Below are positions 5,339 to 18,579 of a stretch of 21,011 nucleotides of DNA, in pieces. Location: IMG/VR virus record IMGVR_UViG_3300042522_001021, positions 1-21,011 of that record. The stretch is one strand, 5' to 3'. Under the pieces are notes generated by a model, which was given only the letters and a program-made list of their open reading frames with translations, did not search any database and had not been told where the DNA came from. The stretch's first letter is position 1, and each line of letters opens with the position of its first letter. The stretch comes from a virus. A program made the position numbers and the translations under genes.

Positions 5339-6358
5339 ATGACTACGGATTCAGTAGAAATTTTCGAAAAGTATTTAAAATCGTTAAACGAAGCACGAAT
5401 GCCGAAAGGAACTCCTCGTCCAGATGTTATTGGTAGTAAAAGTTATAAACAAAAAACTACAATGGCAGATAATCCAGATGCTTCTGAAGCACACGGGGCT
5501 ACTATTGGAAGAAACACTGCATTAACTCCAACACAATCTGATAAAATTAGAGATAGAAACTTTGAATCATATAGAAATGAAGATATGGAAGAAGGTTATT
5601 ATATTCAATTAACTGGAGAAGGATCTAGAGTTTCTAGAAATTCACAAAAAACCTTAATGAATTTAATGCGTGAATATTCAAATAACAAATACTTTCAAAA
5701 TGAAGTAGACGGAGATTTAGTAATTCCTTATTGGATACTTCCAGATTGTATAGAATATTTTACTATGAGTGCAAAGTCGGAAAAAAATCCAAATCTTCGT
5801 CAAGCATATATAGATGCACTCATATTTATGTATGAAGCCATGAGTGATAAAACCACTTATCAACAAATATATAGAAATTCTAAACCTGTATTAAGAATAA
5901 AATCAGAAGGAGGAAAAAGAGAAGTAGAAGAATTAAAAGATACTTATGATGAATTTTCTTCTAAAATAATAGGAAGAATTAAAACATTAAAAACAAATCC
6001 TCCAATGGCATTAGTATTAAAGCCTTTTCTTTTTCACAACCACACAAAACCAAGACAACAAGTAAAATTTGGGTCTGATGTTTACGAAGATGCTATATTT
6101 CTACATGCTCCCGGAGAAGGTGGTCATACTATTTTTGGAAAAACAGATATAGAACCCAAACATGACTATGAAGGAACAGATCCAACATATGGTGTAAGTA
6201 GTGCTGAAAATATAACAGAACCAGAATTAAATAAAATTCACATAAAAGACAAAGAACAAGCAAGAAATACTCCATCTCCAGCAAAATCATTAGGAACACC
6301 AAAAGTTAAAAGAAAGAAAATAAAAGAATCTTTCTTTATCAAGGATATTCCTTTTTAA
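5339..6358 (+). CDS. Unidentified 339-residue phage protein, only plus-strand gene
   Basis: I do not recognise this protein. It has no signal peptide or membrane segment. The N-terminal ~75 residues are polar and probably disordered (KGTPRPDVIGSKSYKQ, DNPDASEAHG). Residues ~85-235 look folded and helical, including DGDLVIPYWILPDCIEYF and a Tyr-rich helix. The section around residues 220-270 is more beta-like (MALVLKPFLFHNHTKP, EDAIFLHAPGEGGHTIF). The C-terminal ~50 residues are again polar and end in a Lys-rich stretch with a hydrophobic tip. The start is set by TATAAATA 5 nt upstream. It is inserted against the direction of all neighbours between gp21 and the 6355 gene, and its stop overlaps the stop of that gene by 4 bp with no terminator between. 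It may be a structural protein or a late insertion. Confidence 0.85.
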   Translation: MTTDSVEIFEKYLKSLNEARMPKGTPRPDVIGSKSYKQKTTMADNPDASEAHGATIGRNTALTPTQSDKIRDRNFESYRNEDMEEGYYIQLTGEGSRVSRNSQKTLMNLMREYSNNKYFQNEVDGDLVIPYWILPDCIEYFTMSAKSEKNPNLRQAYIDALIFMYEAMSDKTTYQQIYRNSKPVLRIKSEGGKREVEELKDTYDEFSSKIIGRIKTLKTNPPMALVLKPFLFHNHTKPRQQVKFGSDVYEDAIFLHAPGEGGHTIFGKTDIEPKHDYEGTDPTYGVSSAENITEPELNKIHIKDKEQARNTPSPAKSLGTPKVKRKKIKESFFIKDIPF

Positions 6359-6839: not shown

Positions 6840-7292
6840 TTAAAACAATTCTTTTTCTGTTAAGATAATAAATTCTGCTCCTCTGTCTTTTGCATATTTT
6901 TTAGCGGCTTCCCATTTAGCTTGGTTAACTGCCCATTGTGTATTTTCGTACAATACCGTAGCTTTCTTTTTCTTTTTAGAAGGAACCGGAGCCAACGTTT
7001 GTTTATATGGCTTTATCTCTATAAGATACTTTTTAATCTTATCACCTTCTTTTAATACTATGTAATTGTCTACAAAATATCGGTGTATTCTGTTGTCTAT
7101 TGGACTTCTATACGGGACTACGATATTCTCCGATCCCCACTCAACCACATTAGGATTAGAATCCGCCCATAAAAGAAACTTTCGTTCATAAGAAGATCGG
7201 AAGACCGCATATTCACCCATAAACTTTTGGGGATTTTTAGGTTTAAAATAACCTTGTTTAAATCGTTCATCTTTTTTTCCTAATGGAAGCAC
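6840..7292 (-). CDS. 4: Head completion protein, T4 gp4 family (PD-(D/E)XK nuclease fold)
   Basis: In T4, gp4 (also called gp50) is needed to finish the packaged head before tail joining. The protein is 150 residues, the same length as T4 gp4. Highly conserved segments are visible: FRSSYERKFLLWADSNPNVV with Glu 36, EWGSENIVVPYRSPIDN, HRYFVDNYI with Asp 75, LIEIKPYKQ with Glu 92 and Lys 94, and a C-terminal QAKWEAAKKYAKDRGAEF. Asp 75 and the ExK triad fit a PD-(D/E)XK nuclease core. The start is GTG at 7292 with a TTAAATA box 5 nt upstream. It lies between the repeat protein and the 6355 gene, away from its T4 neighbours. Confidence 0.92.
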   Translation of the reverse strand: MLPLGKKDERFKQGYFKPKNPQKFMGEYAVFRSSYERKFLLWADSNPNVVEWGSENIVVPYRSPIDNRIHRYFVDNYIVLKEGDKIKKYLIEIKPYKQTLAPVPSKKKKKATVLYENTQWAVNQAKWEAAKKYAKDRGAEFIILTEKELF

Positions 7293-7297
7293 GTTAT

Positions 7298-7304
7298 TAT
7301 TTAA
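7298..7304 (-). promoter_or_regulatory. TTAAATA box, 5 nt before gp4
   Basis: TTAAATA then ATAAC then GTG. The TAA of the box is also the stop codon of the upstream repeat-protein gene (7301-7303). Confidence 0.6.
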
Positions 7305-9457
7305 CTTTTCAATAATAAACTTCTGATTAAATTGTAAATCACAGAATCATTTAATTTTTCCTTTTGTTCCGTAGGTTCTACTATTTCTAAATTTTGTAGA
7401 TCAATTCCAGATATATATTTTATCAAATTTCTGCTAATCGTAATTTTTTGTAACTTGCTAGAATAAATAACTACATAGTCTCCTTTAAGTTCTTGTAACT
7501 TTGGTAAATAAATAATATTTGCGTTATGAGCACGGATATAACCGCTCTCTTTTAATTGTGGTAATTCTATTTTAGCAGCTTTTTCACAATCAATATCACC
7601 ACTTTCTTTTAATTGTGGTAAATGTAATGAACGTATCGAATTCGAAGAAATTTTACCACTTTTTACTAATTCTGGTAATGATAAAGTCTGTGTTAAACTA
7701 GCATATATAGCCCCACTCTGGATTAATTCGGGTAATGATAAATTTAATGTTCTTCGGCAGAAAATAGATTTACAATATTTTAATTTTGGTAACGATAAAT
7801 TTCGTATTTCTTCAAAAAGAATATTTTCACTTTTTTCTAATTGTGGTAATGTTATTGTTATGGCTTTTTCGCATCCAATATCACCACTTTCTTTTAATTG
7901 TGGTAATTCCAAATTTGTCGCTAAATGTGCAGTTATATTACCACTCTTTTTTAAGAATGGTAAAGATACAACTGTTGCGTATTCGAAATTCATATCTCCG
8001 CATTCTACCAAATTAAATGGAAATAATACATATTTAAGAGGCCATACAAATCTATCTAAAATAACCACCCCATTTTCATTTATTTGATGTTTTCGATTAT
8101 TTAAAAAATCTTGAACAATTTTATTTATATTTTTATTAAATTTTGGATCATCTTTCTTTAAACTTAAAAACCACATGGTGCTACCAAAATTTTCCAAAAA
8201 ACTATTTGAAAAATTTTCCACATCTTTCAAAGCATATAATTGATTTGGCGTAAAATCCAGTCCATCTTCATAATCATAGTCGTCAGGAGTCCATTCCGAT
8301 ACTTGAAGTTCCACTCTTCTTTTTACATTTTGTAAATATTGTTTATGTAGTCTAGGCTTTCCTTCGAAAACATAATCAGGAATATCATATTTTTCCGTCA
8401 CATAAATAGCCTTTTCCAAAATCTTATTCCATTCTTCTTTTGGAATTCCATTCCATTCTTCTGGTTTTATATCTTTAAATGATGCAAACGTCACTCGATC
8501 TTCCGTATTTTTAAGTTCTAAGATACTTTCTAAATCATAAAATTTTTGATAGAATTCCAATTCTCTGCCTCTAATTCGAACATAATTGAATACATTATTT
8601 TCAAAAGGTTCTGTCAATTCTGGGTAAAGTTTCAATAATTCTTCTTTAGAAATACTAATATCCTCATTTTCTGTCATCGGATTGTACTGTAATTCTCCAT
8701 CTTCATCTACATCAACCAACATATAGTGTCCTCTTTTTTTGAGATAACAGAAATATGTAGTCAACTTGTCGTTCCATCTATAATCATGATAATGATAACT
8801 AGCATTTGACCCAGAAATACACAGATTTGTTCCTTTTCCAAATTCTTTACATCTTTTGACTCCATTAATCGGATTTTCCGTATCATTAGCCAAATACACC
8901 GCAACTTCATCATTTTCGAATAATGCTTTTTCGGTTTCAGTTTTTTTAATTTCTTGTGGTTTATGTTTTTCCTTACCAGCAAAAGAATGCACAATATCCA
9001 TCCATTTTGGAATACCTTTTTGAAAAAGATTAGAAAATTGAGGGTTGTTCAGTAATTCCTCTTTCTTATCTAAACTATCTTTGTAATCATGCAGAAGAAC
9101 TGGTAATGCTCTATTATATAAATTTTTATTAATCTTGGATTCATCTCCATTAATCTGATTAACATATTGTTGTGTACCAGACATCATAAGCAAAGAATTA
9201 ATCAAGCTCATTAAATCTTTACCTTCAAATAATTCCCCGCCTTTTTGTTTTTGTATTTGTAATATCTGATTTATTATATCAGTAGCTATCGAATCTGCTT
9301 CTTTTTTTAAATTTAGATTAGATTTATAAAGAGAAGATCCAGTAATAAATTTAGCCAATAATTCTTTAGGATCATCGGATTTTATAACATCTCTAGCTTC
9401 TAATAAAATTCTATTATAATATATATCAAATATATTATTTTCATCATTCAACAACAT
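7301..9457 (-). CDS. Large protein with C-terminal 19-residue leucine-rich-like repeats
   Basis: A 718-residue protein of unknown function. Residues 1-165 are mostly helical. Around residues 205-265 is a compact domain with KGTNLCISGSNASYHYHDYR, then YFCYLKKRGHYMLVDVDEDG; similar G-T-x-C-I-S plus YR patterns occur in other large phage proteins, but I cannot name the family. Residues ~300-470 are charged and helical. From ~476 to ~665 there are nine to ten tandem 19-residue repeats of the form [LI]xLPxLxxSGxI followed by about seven variable residues, expected to fold as a beta-solenoid or leucine-rich-repeat arc, usually a binding surface. The start at 9457 has a GTAAATA box 5 nt upstream. 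It is inserted between the putative spanin and gp4. It has no signal peptide or membrane segment, so it could be a virion-associated recognition protein or a cytoplasmic host-interaction factor (inference). Confidence 0.85.
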   Translation of the reverse strand: MLLNDENNIFDIYYNRILLEARDVIKSDDPKELLAKFITGSSLYKSNLNLKKEADSIATDIINQILQIQKQKGGELFEGKDLMSLINSLLMMSGTQQYVNQINGDESKINKNLYNRALPVLLHDYKDSLDKKEELLNNPQFSNLFQKGIPKWMDIVHSFAGKEKHKPQEIKKTETEKALFENDEVAVYLANDTENPINGVKRCKEFGKGTNLCISGSNASYHYHDYRWNDKLTTYFCYLKKRGHYMLVDVDEDGELQYNPMTENEDISISKEELLKLYPELTEPFENNVFNYVRIRGRELEFYQKFYDLESILELKNTEDRVTFASFKDIKPEEWNGIPKEEWNKILEKAIYVTEKYDIPDYVFEGKPRLHKQYLQNVKRRVELQVSEWTPDDYDYEDGLDFTPNQLYALKDVENFSNSFLENFGSTMWFLSLKKDDPKFNKNINKIVQDFLNNRKHQINENGVVILDRFVWPLKYVLFPFNLVECGDMNFEYATVVSLPFLKKSGNITAHLATNLELPQLKESGDIGCEKAITITLPQLEKSENILFEEIRNLSLPKLKYCKSIFCRRTLNLSLPELIQSGAIYASLTQTLSLPELVKSGKISSNSIRSLHLPQLKESGDIDCEKAAKIELPQLKESGYIRAHNANIIYLPKLQELKGDYVVIYSSKLQKITISRNLIKYISGIDLQNLEIVEPTEQKEKLNDSVIYNLIRSLLLKS
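7470..8030 (-). repeat. Tandem ~57-bp coding repeats (19-residue units)
   Basis: The repeats in the gene above are visible as DNA: the plus-strand string cttttaattgtggtaa recurs several times at about 57-bp steps. Two units (near 7560-7620 and 7850-7910) are nearly identical over about 45 bp, encoding LPQLKESGDI followed by DCEKAA or GCEKAI. This suggests recent duplication or gene conversion between units. Boundaries are approximate. Confidence 0.8.
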
Positions 9458-9469: not shown

Positions 9470-10027
9470 CTACTTTCTAAAGAAGAACCCTATTATCGAA
9501 CTTCCTATACTTAGAAACTTAGTAGGAAAGAAGTAAAACAAAGCTCCTAAAGAAGAAAGTATGATTCCAAGTATTGCGTATAATTTTATGGTTTTCTTTT
9601 TTTCGTAATCTTTAATAGTTTTTGCTTCTATATTATCCGTGACTATTTCAGCTACTAATTCTTCGTTCTTTTCTTCTAGAACTTCGATATCTGCTAAATC
9701 TTTTTTACTTTCGTTAAACGTTTCTTCTATAGCTAATTCTTGTTCTTTTTCGTTTAGATTTTTATATTCCGAACCGTCGTCTATTTTTGCTCCTAAAAGT
9801 GTTTGACTTTTTTCTATTATATCAATAGCTCTTTTGATTTCAGATCTTTTTAAATCTGTTTTATTTAAAATATTTTTAGCAGTTGCTATGAAATCTTTGG
9901 CATCTTCTTGAAGCTTTTGTTGCTTCATATCAATCTCTTTTTGATATTTTGTATAATTTGCCGTAGGTGTCGAACACCCAGAAATCAATAAACAAAGTAT
10001 TAAAAAATGTTTGTATAAAGTTTTCAT
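9470..10027 (-). CDS. Putative unimolecular spanin (lipoprotein with C-terminal membrane segment)
   Basis: A 185-residue protein with a bacterial lipoprotein signal: Lys/His-containing N-terminus, hydrophobic stretch LILCLLISG and lipobox ISGC with Cys 18 followed by Ser. The middle, residues 25-145, is a highly charged helical or coiled-coil region. Residues 149-167 are a strong membrane segment, followed by a second weaker hydrophobic stretch (171-183) and a basic RK end. An outer-membrane lipid anchor, periplasmic coiled coil and inner-membrane C-terminus form the architecture of u-spanins such as T1 gp11, which fuse the two membranes at lysis. No endolysin or holin is visible nearby, so the role is inferred from architecture alone; a superinfection-exclusion lipoprotein is the main alternative. 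This is one of few late-looking genes without an exact TAAATA box (the upstream region has TAAAATAAA). Confidence 0.55.
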   Translation of the reverse strand: MKTLYKHFLILCLLISGCSTPTANYTKYQKEIDMKQQKLQEDAKDFIATAKNILNKTDLKRSEIKRAIDIIEKSQTLLGAKIDDGSEYKNLNEKEQELAIEETFNESKKDLADIEVLEEKNEELVAEIVTDNIEAKTIKDYEKKKTIKLYAILGIILSSLGALFYFFPTKFLSIGSSIIGFFFRK

Positions 10028-10034
10028 AAGTAGT

Positions 10035-11282
10035 TTATTTTATGTATTCTATTCTAATTACGGAATTGTCTGGAAATATATGTTTAGCACTTCCAGCCCG
10101 TTTTTTCATATGATATGTCATATTTGGAAGTTTTTTGATTCTTCCTAATAAAGATCTATCACATTTAAATTTATTACAACAATCGGTTTCGCTAAGACAA
10201 TAGACAGGTTCGTTATCATTTATAATGATATTAAAAGGAAATTTATATTTAAAATTTAAATATTTTTTTGTTTTATGTTTAGTTTTGTTATTTTTCAAAA
10301 AAATCCAATTTTCGATTTTTTCTTTTTGGCGATTTATAATATCGTTTATAATATTTATATCTAATTTAGGATTATCCTCTATATTACAAGGAATTAACTT
10401 GATTATAGATTTATCAGAAAAATAATGACTACTGTTTAATTGTCTTGTTATTTTATGTCCATTTTCTTTTGATTTTTTAAATTTTCTCAAAAGAGTATCA
10501 TATGAATTAAATGTTTTGCAGAAAAAGCTTTCGGATTCACAAAAAATAGGTGTTTCGTCATCTATTTGTATAAAGAATGGCTTTGCTGTGGGAAATATAC
10601 AATCTTCTCCTTTCATTTCTTTATAGGTTTTTCCTTTATTAGGAGGGCCATTGTAATTTTCCCCGTATATTTCTATAGCAGTTTTTCCTTTTGATGGATT
10701 AACCCAATTAGGATTATTGAGTCTTTCTCGCATCTTTTTGCCTTGTTGTCTCTCGGAGATTTTCTTAAATGATTCTAGTTCTCTTTCTGTAAATTGTTTA
10801 TTTTTTCTTCTTTCTATTCTTTGTTGCGTACTTTTAATTTCTTTTTCCGTTTTACCAACTTTTTCCATTCTTAGTCTTTTAGATTTTAATCTATTTTCTA
10901 CTTGTTTTTTTATTATTAGATCTTTATTTTTTCCGTATTGTTCTTCGTAAGATTTCCCCTTTCTCAAATTAATGTATTTATGTCTTCCCGGAGACTTCCC
11001 TCCTGCATCTATATTAGACAAATATCCATCTCTAGTAACTAATCTTCCACATTTTTTGATTATTTGTTTTTCTATTTTCCATGCTTTTTCTAATGGAATC
11101 ATTTTATATATTATTTTTCTTATGAAATAATTATCTGGTAAGCTATTAACTATCTTTTGATGAATAGAGTTTCTTTTTAAATAAGAAACTCTAAAATAAG
11201 ATCCTATCCCAACATAAAAAATTTTTTTAGTTATCGGATTTATATCAACATAAACATTAACTTTGTATTTTCCGTCATACAT
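10035..11282 (-). CDS. GIY-YIG homing endonuclease
   Basis: The 415-residue protein has an N-terminal GIY-YIG nuclease domain (about residues 8-95). The signature is VYV, ten residues, then YVG, followed by Arg in GSYFRVSYLKR. A helix with the catalytic Glu follows (EKAWKIEKQIIKKCG), then LSNIDAGGKSPG. Behind it come Lys-rich helices and several GK[ST]-xE-xYG motifs (GKSYEEQYG, GKTAIEIYG, GKTYKEMKG) of the type found in NUMOD3-containing phage nucleases, and two diverged copies of a C-terminal motif (PIFCESESFFCKTF and PVYCLSETDCCNKF) that probably bind DNA. It is free-standing between gp13 and the spanin-like gene. An ATAAATA box lies 3 nt before ATG rather than the usual 5. The target is likely in a neighbouring conserved gene of relatives lacking the element. 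Confidence 0.8.
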   Translation of the reverse strand: MYDGKYKVNVYVDINPITKKIFYVGIGSYFRVSYLKRNSIHQKIVNSLPDNYFIRKIIYKMIPLEKAWKIEKQIIKKCGRLVTRDGYLSNIDAGGKSPGRHKYINLRKGKSYEEQYGKNKDLIIKKQVENRLKSKRLRMEKVGKTEKEIKSTQQRIERRKNKQFTERELESFKKISERQQGKKMRERLNNPNWVNPSKGKTAIEIYGENYNGPPNKGKTYKEMKGEDCIFPTAKPFFIQIDDETPIFCESESFFCKTFNSYDTLLRKFKKSKENGHKITRQLNSSHYFSDKSIIKLIPCNIEDNPKLDINIINDIINRQKEKIENWIFLKNNKTKHKTKKYLNFKYKFPFNIIINDNEPVYCLSETDCCNKFKCDRSLLGRIKKLPNMTYHMKKRAGSAKHIFPDNSVIRIEYIK

Positions 11283-11318: not shown

Positions 11319-12494
11319 TTAACCTACACAGAATATCGCTGGTGGAGCGTCTCCGAACGCGGCGGCGTTATTAAACAATTGAGTTTCTAGCTTTTCTTTT
11401 TCAGTTAAACCTTGTTGCATTAAGTCATTTGTAAAAACTTGCCCACCAAATAGATTTACATTACTAAATTTACCTCTTACCATTCCAACTGTTATTTTTG
11501 TAAGAGCTAAGGCATAGTGATAAACCCACATTTCTTTAATAACATCACGTATTGGACGTTCTACATAACAATAAATAACTCCATAAAATCTTACGGAATC
11601 TGTTGGTTCTGGATATATTCTTAAAATTTGAGTTCTATCGTCAAATTCAAATGATCTTTTAGTTGCTAAAACTTTTTCACGAGTATCTAGCCATTGTTTT
11701 ACTGTGTACCAACTAATTAAATCAAATCCGTAGTTACCCATTGCATAACTAAAATAAGTTTGCTGAGCAAGAGTTTGTTCAATAGTAAACAAAGTATTAA
11801 TACCAGTAGATGCTCCTTCTTGGAAATCTGTAACAGCCATGACTTTTCTGTAATCCATAGCATCATAATCAAACATATTGTTATAGATAACAGTAGGTTG
11901 TTTTTCATCCACTATTCCTTTCATACTAATAGTCTGACTATAAGATGGTATAAAATATGTTGAAATAGGTATTACATTTAATGTAGGATCATTTGCAAAT
12001 GCCGTGACCACTTTATTATATGTAGCGTAATCTAAAATAACATTTCTTTCTAGTCCATCTACAAATAATCCAGATAATTCAGAATTAATAGAAAAGAAAG
12101 CTTTATTAAGAGCAGAAGCAGAAATATAAAAAGTATCTTCGCTGTGTATATAAGGAGCAGTGTCTCTAGATTGTGTACGGTGTGTTACACGATTTGGTTC
12201 TGATATATTTTTATTGGCAAGCGTAAATAACTTATCAATAGGCAATCCTCTACCTTTTTCGTATAGAGAAGAATCTATTACTAGATATTCTTGGGTATAT
12301 CCGGCATATTTGGTGAAAAATTCACAAGCTTGTGAAATAGCATCGAACAATTGATCTTGACTAATTTCAACAGAAACTAATGGTGCACCAAGAGTTCTTA
12401 CTATTCTTTGTGCCAACTTATCAAAAGAATCCATTTTATTATTCAGATTGGTATTCTGAAAAGCCGAAACCGGCATTAAATTATCACAAGACAT
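11319..12494 (-). CDS. 13: Neck / head completion protein, T4 gp13-like
   Basis: Neck protein that closes the portal end of the filled head and lets the tail attach. The 391-residue protein (T4 gp13 has 309) has the family pattern: an N-terminal LAQRIVRTLGAPLVSVEIS region followed by DQLFDAISQACEFF, the equivalent of the LGxPxVxxEI-xQ-xxDxI motif, and a C-terminal module with VRFYGVIYCYVERPIRDVIK, WVYHYALALTK, GKFSNVNLFGGQ and an end in PPAIFCVG, like the PPxFxVG ending of gp13 proteins in marine T4-type phages. The middle (residues ~85-230) is longer than in T4. The start at 12494 is set by a TTAAATA box 5 nt upstream, directly after a terminator. It lies next to the portal gene, with which it works in the neck. 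Confidence 0.75.
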   Translation of the reverse strand: MSCDNLMPVSAFQNTNLNNKMDSFDKLAQRIVRTLGAPLVSVEISQDQLFDAISQACEFFTKYAGYTQEYLVIDSSLYEKGRGLPIDKLFTLANKNISEPNRVTHRTQSRDTAPYIHSEDTFYISASALNKAFFSINSELSGLFVDGLERNVILDYATYNKVVTAFANDPTLNVIPISTYFIPSYSQTISMKGIVDEKQPTVIYNNMFDYDAMDYRKVMAVTDFQEGASTGINTLFTIEQTLAQQTYFSYAMGNYGFDLISWYTVKQWLDTREKVLATKRSFEFDDRTQILRIYPEPTDSVRFYGVIYCYVERPIRDVIKEMWVYHYALALTKITVGMVRGKFSNVNLFGGQVFTNDLMQQGLTEKEKLETQLFNNAAAFGDAPPAIFCVG

Positions 12495-12546: not shown

Positions 12547-12747
12547 TTATCCTTCTGCTGGTGGTGCTCCTTCTGCTGGTGGTGGAGCTTCTGCGCCAGC
12601 TTCTGGAGGTGGTGATTCTTCTCCTCCTTCTGGTGGAGGTGGTGCTCCGCCCATTCCTCCCATTCCGCCACCACCCATTCCTCCACCCATACCACCACTT
12701 GGTGGTGCTCCGCCTCCGGGTGCTCCGCCTCCGGGTGCTCCTCCTGC
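12547..12747 (-). repeat. GC-rich tandem-repeat tail of the portal gene (Gly/Pro-rich, 66 codons)
   Basis: The 3' end of the portal gene is visibly GC-rich against an AT-rich genome. It contains a 15-bp unit (plus strand GGTGCTCCGCCTCCG) repeated in tandem near 12703-12744, plus GGTGGT runs. It encodes GGGAP repeats, then GGMGGG-type repeats, then PPPEGG/PPAEG. Such a tail is expected to be disordered and is not part of the T4 gp20 fold. Confidence 0.85.
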
Positions 12748-15700
12748 TTCTGCTTGTGCAGCTATGGCTTGTTTCCAATTTGGTCCCATATTTTCAATTT
12801 GAGTTAATTCCCAACGTAATTCTTTATCTTTTCTTAGGAATTCGCGATTAGCTTTAATATCAATATCACTCCATCCTAAATATCTTTTCTGTGCAAAAGA
12901 CGGAGAAATAGATTCATTTGATGCTAATGAACCAAAGTTTTGCACTTTAAGTTCTAACTTTTGACTTTCTCTCAATTCGTAGAAGTTAGTTGGAACATTA
13001 AATTCAATATGAATAGTTTCTTCTTTTAATTCATATTCTTTCCACATTCCTTTTAATTGTAAATGTGTAATAAATCCGTTCTTTAATCCACTTGCAAAAA
13101 TATTTTGCAAACGAATAATAAAACGAGCAAATTTTAATTCTTCACGAAGCATATCAGCACCATCACGAAATGCATCTTGTGGATCTAAACGAGTCGTAGG
13201 AACCTTTAGAGATTGATAAAGTTTCTTAACGAAGTACATCAAATCTGCTAATTCTCCAAGATTTGAATTTTTCGTAAATACCCCACAATCAAGGGCAAAC
13301 GTATGATAACCATGATATCTTTCTTCATTATCAATCGTCAATGTACCTACTTGAATCTTGTTAGGAAGCTTCTCGACACTAACTAAACGATGGTTGAATA
13401 GTTCGCATTCTTTGCGGAATTGCTTCCATGTTTTATATCCAAAGCTCTTAACCATCGGTGCAAAATGAGTATAAGAAATCTTAGTTCCACACCAATTTTT
13501 AATCTTTCTACCTTCATTTAACTTCAAGAAATGACCAAGAATTTCTGGAGTATTGTTAATAATATCACATAAGTCTTCCTTTGTTACTTCATGTGTAGTC
13601 TTTCCGCGTACTTGATCAATTACAAATTTAAGAATCTTATCATCAAAAATAAAAGATTGTGTTTCTGTTAATTTTTTTGAAGCATTTACATAATTTTCAT
13701 TTTTCAATAATTTTTCGTAAGATTTAGAAAAATGAATTTTTCTTTCTTCTTCAGACATTGCAGCAAACTTTGATTTAAGTCCTTTGCTTATCTTCGATCC
13801 ATATTCTTTCTTAAATTCTGAATCTTTTAGCTTTTCTCCTAAAGCAATTGGACCTAATTTTCCATTTTCTCTTGAGATTTCTGCACGAACCGCTCTCTCT
13901 TCTGGTGATAAATTGGAAAAATATTCTTTAATTTCCTTACTTATTTTAGAACAGTGTTCAGTTTTTTCTTTTTCTGAAAAAGAAGACCACATATTTTTTG
14001 TGTTTTGTGATATTTTTTTACAGTACTCTTCGTATTTTTCGTAATTATTTTCTTTGAGATATTTCAATCTTTCGACAGAAGCCATAGTTCCTATCATTGG
14101 TTCGAATTTTATATCTCTATGTAAAATGATATGATCTTTGGCATTAATAAATGCTAAATTATCAGGAGCATTGTCGAAACGATTTAAATTTTTATGATGG
14201 ATTACATCTTTCTTAGAACTTAAATATTTTTCGGAATATGTCATTTCCTCATGTTCATTAACATTTTTGAAGAAATTAGCTACCATTCTATGGGTATATT
14301 CCCATGTTTTGGTATCATTTTGATATACCATTTCATATTCATTAGTATTCTTACTAATTTTTTCGTTCTTAGTGTAAAAAGGTATCATACTCTCGCCTAT
14401 TTCTAGATCTTTTGCTTCTACAAATCCTTTTCCTAAAATTGGGAATTTATGATCAGGTGTACAAATTAATTCTTTTCCATTATCAAAAGTAAGTTTATAC
14501 ACTTCAGCTTCTTCTTGTGTAACGCCAGCCCAAGTAACTAAACCGGGGGCTACGTGACCAGTTTTCGGATCTGTGCTATACACCCATACTTTCTTATCTT
14601 CTTTGATTTCTTGCTCAATTTCGCTTATAGTTAAAGTTCTTCCGTCCAATAATGGAACTTTAGTATTCATAGCTAAACATGCTCCAGCCAACTGTGTTAC
14701 GCTAGTTCCTTCAGATCCAGCACGTTTTGCAAACCAAAAGTTATCTAAAATAGATTGTGGCTTAAACTTTTGTACAATATTTCCTTGATCTGGATCATAT
14801 GTTTTAGAAGACCAATAATTCGTAATTAATTTACGAAGATACGCCTCTGCTTTTGGTGCTGGCATGTTACCAACATCCACATTAAACACTAAACGTTCTG
14901 GAGCACGAGCCAAACGATAAATGATAATCGAATCTTCAATCATCGACAATTGACGATAAGCTCTGCGAGCATTTTCTAAAAATGGCAAACGCATTGTTTT
15001 GCTTTCGTTCCATACGTCAGAATGTACATAAGTAATCTGATTTTTATCCATCGGAATGTAATCAATTCCAATTTGTTTTAATGGATTATTTGGATCGAAT
15101 TTAGGTTTACGATACAAATAACCCTTTACCATTACGTTTTGTACATTAGAAAATACAGGATCAATTAATTCAGTGGGAACTTGCACAACTCCCAAAACTC
15201 CTTCTTCTACATAATCTTTATGGATAATATGTTCCCAATAGATTTCTCCTTCTACTAATAATTGACGAAAATAACTCCATCCTTTGTGCTCGAAGTCAAA
15301 ATAATTAGTATACTTTAAAAATTCCTTTTCAATTGTTTCTTTTTGAAAATCAGAAAGATTAACGTTTCTGTATTTTATTTTCAGACAGCTACTAGTATGT
15401 GGATCTATATTGATAATTTCATCACAAATCTCATCTAATGCATTTGCAACTTCTGAGAAAGCTGCCATGATACGATAATCTTTAACACGAGCCAATTTAT
15501 CTTTTTGGATATTGGCATACATCACTTCACTGTATCGTTTATCCGAAGATACAGTTCCTACAGTTTCGTTGTTAAATTCAAAATTTTGCGAAATTGAATG
15601 ACGAGAAAGAACCTCTGCTCTTTTCATTCCCGTATCTTCGAAATAACGATACTTCGGATTTAAATTCTGAACCATTTGAGTAGTATCAAAACCAGAATAC

Positions 15701-15768
15701 GGAAGTTTAGATGAAATATAATTCATCAACTCTTGTTTAAAGGACGTAGATCCATTAATTTCAGCCAT
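12547..15768 (-). CDS. 20: Portal vertex protein, T4 gp20 family, interrupted by an intein
   Basis: Dodecameric DNA entry and exit channel that nucleates prohead assembly. The precursor has 1073 residues: N-extein 1-363, intein 364-834, C-extein 835-1073. The mature portal would be about 602 residues (T4 gp20 has 524). Family segments include FSEVANALDEICDEI, DIDPHTSS-like NIDPHTSSCLKIK, YIPMDKNQITYVHSDVW, RRAYRQLSMIEDSIIIYRLA, RLVFNVDVGNMPAPKAEAYL and, rejoined across the intein, TSVTQLAGA plus SNLGELADLMYFVKKLY, the conserved NLGE region of gp20. The last 66 residues are an unusual Gly/Pro/Ala/Glu tail. The start at 15768 has a GTAAATA box 5 nt upstream, and a terminator follows. It is flanked by gp15-like and gp13, its partners at the neck. 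Confidence 0.95.
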   Translation of the reverse strand: MAEINGSTSFKQELMNYISSKLPYSGFDTTQMVQNLNPKYRYFEDTGMKRAEVLSRHSISQNFEFNNETVGTVSSDKRYSEVMYANIQKDKLARVKDYRIMAAFSEVANALDEICDEIINIDPHTSSCLKIKYRNVNLSDFQKETIEKEFLKYTNYFDFEHKGWSYFRQLLVEGEIYWEHIIHKDYVEEGVLGVVQVPTELIDPVFSNVQNVMVKGYLYRKPKFDPNNPLKQIGIDYIPMDKNQITYVHSDVWNESKTMRLPFLENARRAYRQLSMIEDSIIIYRLARAPERLVFNVDVGNMPAPKAEAYLRKLITNYWSSKTYDPDQGNIVQKFKPQSILDNFWFAKRAGSEGTSVTQLAGACLAMNTKVPLLDGRTLTISEIEQEIKEDKKVWVYSTDPKTGHVAPGLVTWAGVTQEEAEVYKLTFDNGKELICTPDHKFPILGKGFVEAKDLEIGESMIPFYTKNEKISKNTNEYEMVYQNDTKTWEYTHRMVANFFKNVNEHEEMTYSEKYLSSKKDVIHHKNLNRFDNAPDNLAFINAKDHIILHRDIKFEPMIGTMASVERLKYLKENNYEKYEEYCKKISQNTKNMWSSFSEKEKTEHCSKISKEIKEYFSNLSPEERAVRAEISRENGKLGPIALGEKLKDSEFKKEYGSKISKGLKSKFAAMSEEERKIHFSKSYEKLLKNENYVNASKKLTETQSFIFDDKILKFVIDQVRGKTTHEVTKEDLCDIINNTPEILGHFLKLNEGRKIKNWCGTKISYTHFAPMVKSFGYKTWKQFRKECELFNHRLVSVEKLPNKIQVGTLTIDNEERYHGYHTFALDCGVFTKNSNLGELADLMYFVKKLYQSLKVPTTRLDPQDAFRDGADMLREELKFARFIIRLQNIFASGLKNGFITHLQLKGMWKEYELKEETIHIEFNVPTNFYELRESQKLELKVQNFGSLASNESISPSFAQKRYLGWSDIDIKANREFLRKDKELRWELTQIENMGPNWKQAIAAQAEAGGAPGGGAPGGGAPPSGGMGGGMGGGGMGGMGGAPPPPEGGEESPPPEAGAEAPPPAEGAPPAEG
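13267..14679 (-). mobile_element. Intein with HNH homing endonuclease in the portal protein
   Basis: A 471-residue intein. It begins at Cys (codon 14677-14679) with the block A pattern CLAMNTKVPLLDG, has block B LICTPDHKFPIL with TxxH at intein residues 74-77, and ends with CGVFTKN (Asn codon 13267-13269) followed by Ser as first C-extein residue. The nuclease domain is HNH type: IHHKNLNRFDNAPDNLAFIN then HIILH (intein residues ~160-187). It is followed by ~200 Lys/Glu-rich residues probably involved in DNA contact. The penultimate residue is Lys instead of the usual His, which occurs in some active inteins but may slow Asn cyclisation. The insertion point lies between LAGA and SNLGELADL, a highly conserved portal site, as expected for homing. 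Removal restores a continuous portal sequence in frame. Confidence 0.93.
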
Positions 15769-16944: not shown

Positions 16945-18579
16945 TTAAACGAATCTTGAAATAAAATACTTGGGCAATTTCCTTACTGATCGTATAACCG
17001 CATCTGTGATTGTTCCATCTAAGATATAAGTGATACATTTATCATTTTTTGTTCTTACTCCTCTACCACAAGCTTGAATTAAATTATTCAACATTTTATT
17101 AACATACCAATCAGGATCTTCTTTGAAGAGTCTTTTAATTCGTTCGTCATTTAATGGCATGTATGCCGCTTTCAATAATATTTGAAATCTAGCCAGATCT
17201 TCTTTCAAATCTACTCCGAATGCCATTGAAGGACTCACTAATATAGTAGGTTCTTTTGATTCAATATGCTGTTTAATAATAGCTTCGTTATTTTGCCCGT
17301 CTATTCTGAATAGAAATCTAGGATCATTTGTTCGGTCTTTTAAATACTGAGTAATTTCCATAGTATGAGTATGGATAATTCCTTTTTGGTGTTTATGCAG
17401 TTCACATATTTTTAAAGTATTTTCGCATAACTTCGGAAGTTTTTCTTTTAAATTCTTAAAATTAATCTTTTCGCCTACTTTTACATAGATGGGAGCATTT
17501 TTAGGTTCAAATGCCGAATCTACTTCAATATACTTATATTTCTTGATTCCTAATGTTTTAGCAAAATTAGCATGATCAATAATTGTCGCAGACATTAACA
17601 ATACTTTGTCACCAAATCTAAAAATACTATCAGACAATCTTTCAACTCTGAGTGGCTTTAATGTTACACCTTCTAAGTTATGTTCAATTACATATTCACA
17701 TTCTTCCCATGTATCTAATGTTACTTTTATTTGAGAATGTAAATTACTAAAAAGTTTATACCTTTGAACATCAGAATCGATGAATGTACTCTTTTTCTTT
17801 TTGTTTAAAACTTTTTTAAGTTCTTCTACTTCGTTTCCTAAATTAATTTTAAGACTTTCCAACCAAATTCTAAACTTTTTGTAATTTTCTACTGGTACGT
17901 CTTGTGGTTTAAACCCTAGTCTTTTTAGGATTTTGTAATTTAAACTTCTACTAAAACGCTTTACCAATTCATCTTCTAGTTCCGAAGCTTCATCACAAAC
18001 AATATATTCTCTTCTCTTTACATGATCAGGAAGAGAAAGAAACATACTATAATTAAGAATTCCGAATTTGTTAATTAATGTATCTCTTCTATTATTATAA
18101 TAATCACAACGAGAGTTTAAAATGCATCCTTCTTTTAATTTAGAATTAAAAAGACAAGGAGCTACTTCCACATCACAACTTGGATCAACTCTACAAATAT
18201 AACTACTCTTTCCTTTCAAAGAAAATGCATCGTTAAAACTATTTGTGTATTGATCTTGTAATCCTTTTGTAATAGTCAGCGCAAAAGCTCCAAAAGAAGG
18301 TTCGTCTCTACATTCATCTGCTCTCAAATAATCTCCGTATTGATCTGCTCTGAAAGCATTATAAGATTCGATTAAATTTCTAAATTTATCGGTAGCATCT
18401 TTTGAGAAGTTTGCAAGTGTTTTTGATAAAAACGACTTACCACTTCCAGTGGGAGCACAACAAATTACAAATTTATATCCACTTTTAAAGGCGGAATCTA
18501 TCTCTTCAATTAAGTGTGTTTGTTCTTCAGAAGGTTCGTATTTTCCACCTTCGTAAGGAAAGTAATCTAACAATACCAT
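16945..18579 (-). CDS. XPD/DinG-type superfamily 2 DNA helicase with Cys cluster (Fe-S)
   Basis: ATP-dependent 5'-3' type helicase by family. The protein has 544 residues from ATG 18579 (a TTG directly before it is the alternative). Motif I is CCAPTGSGKS (residues 41-49) and the Walker B box is CDEAS (195-199), where Ser replaces the usual His. Motif V-like VSPSMAFGVDLKED and motif VI QACGRGVR (502-509) are present. Between motifs I and II, Cys residues at 129, 135, 142, 152 and 158, ending CDYY, match the 4Fe-4S cluster region of XPD/DinG helicases. Role in the phage is unknown; replication or recombination is likely. It has no TAAATA box and follows the 18595 gene by 15 nt, so it is probably co-transcribed with that gene as an early or middle gene. 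Confidence 0.9.
   Translation of the reverse strand: MVLLDYFPYEGGKYEPSEEQTHLIEEIDSAFKSGYKFVICCAPTGSGKSFLSKTLANFSKDATDKFRNLIESYNAFRADQYGDYLRADECRDEPSFGAFALTITKGLQDQYTNSFNDAFSLKGKSSYICRVDPSCDVEVAPCLFNSKLKEGCILNSRCDYYNNRRDTLINKFGILNYSMFLSLPDHVKRREYIVCDEASELEDELVKRFSRSLNYKILKRLGFKPQDVPVENYKKFRIWLESLKINLGNEVEELKKVLNKKKKSTFIDSDVQRYKLFSNLHSQIKVTLDTWEECEYVIEHNLEGVTLKPLRVERLSDSIFRFGDKVLLMSATIIDHANFAKTLGIKKYKYIEVDSAFEPKNAPIYVKVGEKINFKNLKEKLPKLCENTLKICELHKHQKGIIHTHTMEITQYLKDRTNDPRFLFRIDGQNNEAIIKQHIESKEPTILVSPSMAFGVDLKEDLARFQILLKAAYMPLNDERIKRLFKEDPDWYVNKMLNNLIQACGRGVRTKNDKCITYILDGTITDAVIRSVRKLPKYFISRFV

Follow-up and report, generated by a model that had tools for sequence, protein, structure and literature searches.

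A conserved, single-chain predicted lipoprotein among the virion genes of T4-like phages from metagenomes is a candidate all-helical unimolecular spanin

The window analysed here is the entire IMG/VR record IMGVR_UViG_3300042522_001021, 21,011 bases in length. It carries matches to T4-like phage genes for the major head protein, head maturation protease, gp4-like closure protein, neck protein, portal and tail sheath stabiliser, and the phage is thus a T4-like one, known only from metagenomes. Among these virion genes lies an open reading frame (ORF) of 185 amino acids on the minus strand (10027..9470; ATG at 10027, stop codon at 9470-9472). An earlier sequence-only reading had proposed this ORF, strand unstated, as the gene of a unimolecular spanin (u-spanin), and the ORF itself is borne out. 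Its conserved upstream neighbor is a neck/head-tail adaptor gene (phrog_211; 11319..12494, minus strand), and its conserved downstream neighbor is a gp4-like head closure gene (phrog_218; 6840..7292, minus strand). In the window the candidate is flanked by a 415-amino-acid ORF (10035-11282) and a 718-amino-acid ORF (7301-9457), inserted one on each side, and in the relatives L005 and L009 it lies directly between its neighbors without such insertions.

Several of the surrounding genes have features of their own. The 415-amino-acid ORF, just upstream of the candidate on the minus strand, has a YVGIG-like N-terminus and by eye is perhaps a GIY-YIG homing endonuclease, with no match in Pfam; it is missing from this place in L009 and in G001, a 236-kb near relative whose candidate copy is 91% identical. 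The portal gene (12547-15768, minus strand) carries an in-frame insertion with similarity to HNH endonucleases that appears intein-like by eye (CLAMNTKV ... TKNSNLGEL); the insertion is shorter at the same site in L003 and is lacking in L005. The protein encoded at 7301-9457 (minus strand) begins like a group of 12 G001 proteins that match an N-terminal pattern such as MNDEELIWEAY, and that at 5339-6358 (plus strand) begins similarly. Ten of the 12 start with MND and the group is otherwise dissimilar by eye, a count made without a chance control. Such starts resemble the T4 capsid-targeting sequences that are cut by the gp21 protease, and they may mark internal head proteins.

The layout that had been proposed for the 185-residue protein, namely a lipobox, a charged middle and a C-terminal hydrophobic segment, is confirmed in all three parts. 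Lipobox and transmembrane (TM) calls were made with motif patterns and Kyte-Doolittle hydropathy. Residues 1-18 (9974..10027, minus strand) form a lipoprotein signal peptide with the lipobox ISGC, in which Cys18 is the predicted lipidated residue and serine occupies position +2. A charged, predicted periplasmic domain follows (residues 19-148; 9584..9973, minus strand) that is free of cysteine and is predicted to form helices at residues 27-54 and 61-78 and a long helix that starts at residue 93. The C-terminal TM helix spans residues 149-167 (9527..9583, minus strand; mean hydropathy 2.08), and the protein ends in an invariant Pro168 and a short, amphipathic tail with a basic end (residues 168-185; 9473..9526, minus strand).

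Besides the window, 17 IMG/VR contigs carry relatives of the candidate, giving 18 contigs in all and, because three contigs are repeats, 15 distinct sequences. The copy in G002 is identical to the window protein (P0001); 13 of the distinct relatives are 29-91% identical to it, and the remaining one, L340, is 57% identical. Residues invariant in 14/14 aligned members include Cys18, Lys148, which precedes the TM segment, and Pro168, which follows it. The family is apparently small and undescribed: no description of it was found among the mainly open-access journal articles searched, survey supplements aside.

Under a lax motif the lipobox cysteine is present in 15/15 distinct members, even though the signal peptide is otherwise variable. 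Ten of the 15, the window protein included, fit the strict consensus [LVI][ASTVI][GAS]C; the other five depart from it at the -3 position (four have Phe and L340 has Thr), and these departures count against a u-spanin. No member (0/15) has Asp at +2. The lipobox and the +2 residue suggest host export and an outer-membrane sorting signal. Cysteines in all 15 members are confined to the signal peptide, lipobox or TM segment, such that the family shares with u-spanins the lack of any periplasmic cysteine. The stretch KKKTIK places positive charge just before the TM segment, on its supposed periplasmic side, and this too argues against a u-spanin.

The sequence-only reading had also described a double hydrophobic C-terminus, and had suggested that it forms a hairpin or re-entrant anchor. 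Its first element stands: residues 149-167 give a single strong Kyte-Doolittle peak (mean 2.08), beyond which a weaker shoulder extends to the final residues. One such C-terminal TM segment, with peak hydropathy of 1.66-2.84, is found in 15/15 members, the most distant of which are only 29% identical to P0001. The supposed second stretch comprises only 13 residues (171-183). Most relatives of at least 42% identity have a tail of KFLSIGxxIIGFFxRK or near it, and five diverged members (L014, L100, L102, L010 and L013) have short, polar-basic tails such as SKGLLSIFKK and SNLTKVIPKK. L015, which is 34% identical, keeps a longer and fairly hydrophobic tail, SGLISGTFSAITSFFKK. Mean tail hydropathy is 0.72 for P0001, 0.58 for L015, 0.14 for L014 and 0.02 for L010, and hydrophobic moments for 11 tails range from 0.43 to 0.58, values obtained without a random control. 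Since 13 residues are too few for an ordinary TM helix and the five diverged members have polar tails, there is no conserved double membrane anchor, and we read the tail from these alignments as an amphipathic helix at the membrane surface and not as a second TM segment. The TM hairpin or re-entrant anchor was consequently set aside as a trait of the family, for which it is unlikely: most of the divergent members have one TM segment and a short polar, amphipathic tail. L015 keeps a second hydrophobic stretch, and single members may have such an anchor.

We assessed how often this architecture arises by chance using 902 called genes of 100-300 amino acids from nine related phage records, four of which (G001-G004) had been found through their carrying the candidate family. 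The lipobox pattern occurs in 9/902 genes, and six of the 902 also encode a lone C-terminal TM segment. These six are the four candidate-family genes of G001, G002, G003 and G004, a gene of the phage record G007 (8624..9193), and a gene for a 100-amino-acid protein of G008 that we judged to be a multi-TM false positive. When the candidate was shuffled, the lipobox together with a C-terminal TM segment was obtained in 0/200,000 sequences and the lipobox alone in 50; shuffling of all 902 genes gave the combination in 0/18,040.

Values of dN/dS for the candidate are 0.15, 0.16 and 0.17 against L003, L004 and L009, respectively, and 0.47 for L010 and L013, a close pair separated by few changes. 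By these sequence comparisons the ORF is a real gene under purifying selection, which favors the u-spanin reading. The order neck gene, candidate, gp4 on one strand is retained at 18/18 loci where all three were found. In L008, gp4 lies near the contig end and a neck gene is lacking. Such a constant slot, on the same strand as the neck gene and gp4, is what would be expected if the protein belonged to the virion or its assembly, in the region of neck and head closure, and merely happened to be hydrophobic at both ends. However, a lipobox cysteine preserved in 15/15 members despite a varying signal peptide, together with a TM segment kept at full length, points to envelope signals. Moreover, 26 bases separate the neck match from the gp4 match of L017, with no candidate between them, which argues that the protein is not needed for the neck. 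A structural role is accordingly highly improbable.

An envelope protein need not act in lysis. Cor and T5 Llp are examples of phage lipoproteins that act in superinfection exclusion or envelope takeover, and with these as precedents the candidate, which lies outside a lysis cassette, could be an envelope lipoprotein of this kind, anchored at both ends and without a role in lysis. Yet receptor masking would not call for an inner-membrane TM segment following the lipobox. The position of the candidate among virion assembly genes is also fixed at all 18 loci, whereas accessory genes of the exclusion type usually vary in place. No exclusion-lipoprotein family (Cor/Llp-like) in PHROGs, Pfam or NCBIfam gave a significant match to the candidate; a Cor label did arise, from a weak PHROG match (E 0.074) of a different protein over its signal peptide. 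We regard an exclusion or takeover function as unlikely.

To examine the fold, AlphaFold was run on the candidate with a 13-sequence alignment. The model is all helical and of low confidence (mean pLDDT 67.7, pTM 0.27), with helices at residues 27-54, 61-78, 93-166 (74 residues, running into the membrane) and 168-184. At 1.5 Å per residue for helix and up to 3.5 Å for loops, a chain folded as modeled could reach about 250 Å, enough for the periplasm. A Foldseek search with the model against viral models gave no match at E ≤0.001, as expected of a low-confidence coil. The low confidence of the helical fold weighs against an all-helical u-spanin, as does the beta-rich character of the T1-family u-spanins that have been published.

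Homology searches place the candidate in no known family. No significant match was obtained in Pfam, PHROGs, NCBIfam or PDB sequences. Two further null results count against the u-spanin reading: the best matches to PHROG spanins (Rz-like) reach only E 0.2 and 0.51, and tblastn with P0001 in 50,697 phage records gave no match at E 10. A tblastn search of phage records with L015 likewise gave none at E 1. U-spanins of the T1 gp11 type (spanin survey and SpaninDB; Kongari et al. 2018, PMC6139136) resemble the candidate in having one chain, an N-terminal lipobox, a C-terminal TM segment and no periplasmic cysteine. The survey lists 58 u-spanins in 13 families, none of which has a periplasmic cysteine (PMC6139136). 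The T1-family periplasmic domain is described there as a short helix plus at least four strands, whereas the candidate is predicted to be all helix, a comparison that rests on the published description (PMC6139136); the helical model (pLDDT 67.7) contains no beta-rich periplasmic domain of the T1 gp11 type. This domain is a trait of the T1 family, and its lack bars the candidate from that family, not from u-spanins at large.

The candidate also shares features with two-component spanins. Like Rz-type spanins, it combines a charged periplasmic part, predicted here to be helical, with a TM segment for the inner membrane. In T4 PseT.3/PseT.2 and in Rz/Rz1, however, the anchors are divided between two chains, and the TM segment of two-component spanins is N-terminal whereas that of the candidate is C-terminal. 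With both anchors on one chain, the candidate differs in kind from an Rz or Rz1 homologue. A published contrast sets helical two-component spanins against beta-rich u-spanins, by analogy with viral fusion proteins of class I and class II, respectively (PMC6139136). In flavobacterial phages, u-spanins have been predicted for Ingeline and Nekkels (PMC8776804). Like the candidate, these are single-chain proteins, and their phages infect an outer-membrane phylum (PMC8776804).

Genomic position sets the candidate apart from T1-type u-spanins and from that of Nekkels. Nearly all T1-family members are reported to lie in a pinholin/SAR-endolysin cassette (PMC6139136), and the Nekkels u-spanin is described as near a GH19 enzyme (PMC8776804), whereas the candidate lies among virion genes. 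No recognised endolysin or holin adjoins it, its fixed neighbors being virion genes, and this counts against a u-spanin. Nonetheless, linkage to a holin or endolysin is usual but not defining for u-spanins. The lysis genes of T4-like phages are unclustered (PMC6139136).

We looked for other lysis genes in G001. Pfam searches covered 149 of 184 called G001 genes of 85-340 amino acids outside 62-89 kb, from which some that were antisense or had already been identified were removed by eye, and six picked G001 genes, two of which are among the 149. The only recognised wall hydrolases in this set are a DPBB/RlpA-like lytic transglycosylase and a GH46 enzyme, each a candidate endolysin. PF00959 was not matched in G001-G004, nor were PF13539, PF08291, PF01510 and PF01464. 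These Pfam searches thus identified no confident endolysin of the candidate's lineage, a further point against the u-spanin reading. Two G001 proteins might act in lysis: a papain-like peptidase (17069..17998), which has a hydrophobic segment at its C-terminus, and a 112-amino-acid RlpA-like lytic transglycosylase (29672..30010), which has a likely signal peptide. In G005, gp4 is adjoined by a gene (60007..60861) for a GH24 protein that is extended at its N-terminus and has homologues in G010, G016 and G017, all of which may be lysozymes packaged in virions. The GH24 genes near gp4 in G005 and G010 resemble lysis genes, but their N-terminal extensions suggest that they may be virion enzymes, and we did not count them as evidence. 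The T4 late promoter sequence TATAAATA occurs in 25 copies in G001 and within 120 bases upstream of 9/236 genes, to which we give no evidential weight.

An all-frame scan of G001 for lipobox ORFs of at least 35 amino acids used a pattern that requires Lys or Arg close to the N-terminus and may overlook unusual signals. Besides the candidate it returned one credible lipoprotein, of 117 amino acids and without a TM segment (210183..210536); the other hits are two internal starts of larger genes and three ORFs antisense to called genes. This lipoprotein gene and the divergent GH46-matching gene (209448..210113; GH46 match at 209493-210077) have their starts about 70 bases apart. The 117-amino-acid protein could be an o-spanin, which is a point against the candidate. 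The true spanin might then lie elsewhere, for example as this lipoprotein with an unlinked inner-membrane partner, leaving the candidate some other envelope role. Spanin genes of T4-like phages need not cluster with other lysis genes (PMC6139136), which is compatible with such an arrangement. But no gene of the i-spanin-like type, with an N-terminal TM segment and a coiled coil, was seen near the 117-amino-acid gene, and no Rz/Rz1-type pair was recognised in the 236 kb of G001, a possibly incomplete record. Searches of viral contigs for close relatives returned only the 117-amino-acid protein itself, and only itself for the GH46 enzyme, more distant relatives lying beyond this search, whereas the candidate family is kept on 18 contigs. 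We consider a spanin elsewhere quite improbable. The spanin survey identified no spanin in 91 of its 677 genomes (PMC6139136).

The G007 gene that emerged from the architecture screen provides a yardstick. G007 is 203 kb long, has a gp4 54% identical to that of the window, and contains no member of the candidate family. It encodes A6 (L115:8624-9193, that is G007 8624..9193, plus strand), a 189-amino-acid lipoprotein with a C-terminal TM segment and the motif SCTVYTEKQSEALS. A6 is followed by a 143-amino-acid protein with two hydrophobic segments, by eye a putative holin, and then by a 203-amino-acid lysozyme that matches Phage_lysozyme (GH24) at E 2.3e-9. Among relatives of A6 (L171-L250), of which 80 of 81 loci were kept, the 4 kb downstream contain a GH24 gene at 54/80 loci, a putative holin at 56/80 and at least one of the two at 58/80; four of the 22 loci with neither end within 150 bases. 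A lax lipobox pattern is matched at 73/80 loci. A6 gave no tblastn match at E 0.01 in the 50,697 phage records, and its best PHROG match is at E 0.03. A6 is likely a cassette u-spanin.

The AlphaFold model of A6 (mean pLDDT 79.4) has helices at residues 21-39 and 43-56, a middle part with two short strand pairings, and a helix at 109-183 that runs into the TM segment. A6 and the candidate are of the same length class and share a predicted plan of two N-terminal helices, a long helix leading into a C-terminal TM segment and a short tail. They differ in that A6 mostly adjoins a GH24 lysozyme and a putative holin and the candidate does not. Homology between the two was rejected: profile comparison gave a probability of 19, with only 21 TM columns aligned, and this too counts against the u-spanin reading. 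On sequence grounds the two families look convergent. That A6, with this shared architecture, neighbors genes for a lysozyme and a putative holin makes helical one-chain spanins plausible in these phages.

A u-spanin implies a host with an outer membrane, as had been noted in the sequence-only reading. G001 encodes two proteins recognised as DUF1501-like (7124..8395 and 54244..55608), which may be a host clue or auxiliary genes; the one tested gave no match in NCBIfam, and no description of DUF1501 in such phages was found in the literature searched. Among the best 80 bacterial loci listed for relatives of the 7124..8395 protein, 57 are Verrucomicrobiota, 21 Planctomycetota and 2 other, by titles of which some are doubtful, and the first 15 listed are 66-69% identical and all Verrucomicrobiota by title. 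Shine-Dalgarno (SD)-like motifs precede 14/236 G001 genes, compared with 11% of random places. These relatives and the scarcity of SD-like motifs fit an outer-membrane host on the PVC or Bacteroidota side. The claim is plausible on these observations, neither of which proves it, and we conclude that the host probably has an outer membrane and is perhaps one of the Verrucomicrobiota. Bacteroidetes phages in one survey data set are reported to have u-spanins exclusively (PMC12596118), which favors the u-spanin reading.

On balance, we consider it probable that the candidate is an all-helical u-spanin, with its lysis role and topology deduced from the evidence above. Support for what survives of the original proposal comes from the conservation of both the lipobox and the C-terminal TM segment, the cysteine-free periplasmic part, the rarity of the architecture, the failure to recognise an Rz/Rz1 pair in G001, and the precedent of A6. 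A u-spanin of this kind would be expressed late and exported, then cleaved and lipidated at Cys18 and delivered to the outer membrane. Its C-terminal helix (149-167) would span the inner membrane, the amphipathic, basic tail lying at the cytoplasmic face, such that one chain would bridge the periplasm through helices 27-54, 61-78 and 93-148. Intact peptidoglycan might cage the chains; once the wall is removed by holin and endolysin, the helices could oligomerise or fold back, pulling the membranes together until they fuse and progeny are released.

More tentatively, and with somewhat less than even confidence, we suggest that not all u-spanins are class II-like fusogens rich in beta structure, and that phages of hosts with an outer membrane, perhaps Verrucomicrobiota or Bacteroidota, gave rise to two unrelated single-chain families that are all or mostly helical, the candidate and A6. 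In such proteins a lipid anchor, a helical rod that folds back, a TM segment and an amphipathic tail in the inner leaflet would do on one chain the job of Rz and Rz1. Of the two families A6, which has a clear cassette, would be the simpler to test first. If the candidate is indeed an all-helical u-spanin, it would break the pairing of helical folds with two-component spanins and of beta-rich folds with u-spanins, and would allow fusion by helical spanins to be modeled with a single gene. In T4-like phages whose hosts have been little studied, and in which lysis genes are scattered, it would further serve to mark the outer-membrane lysis gene that is missing.
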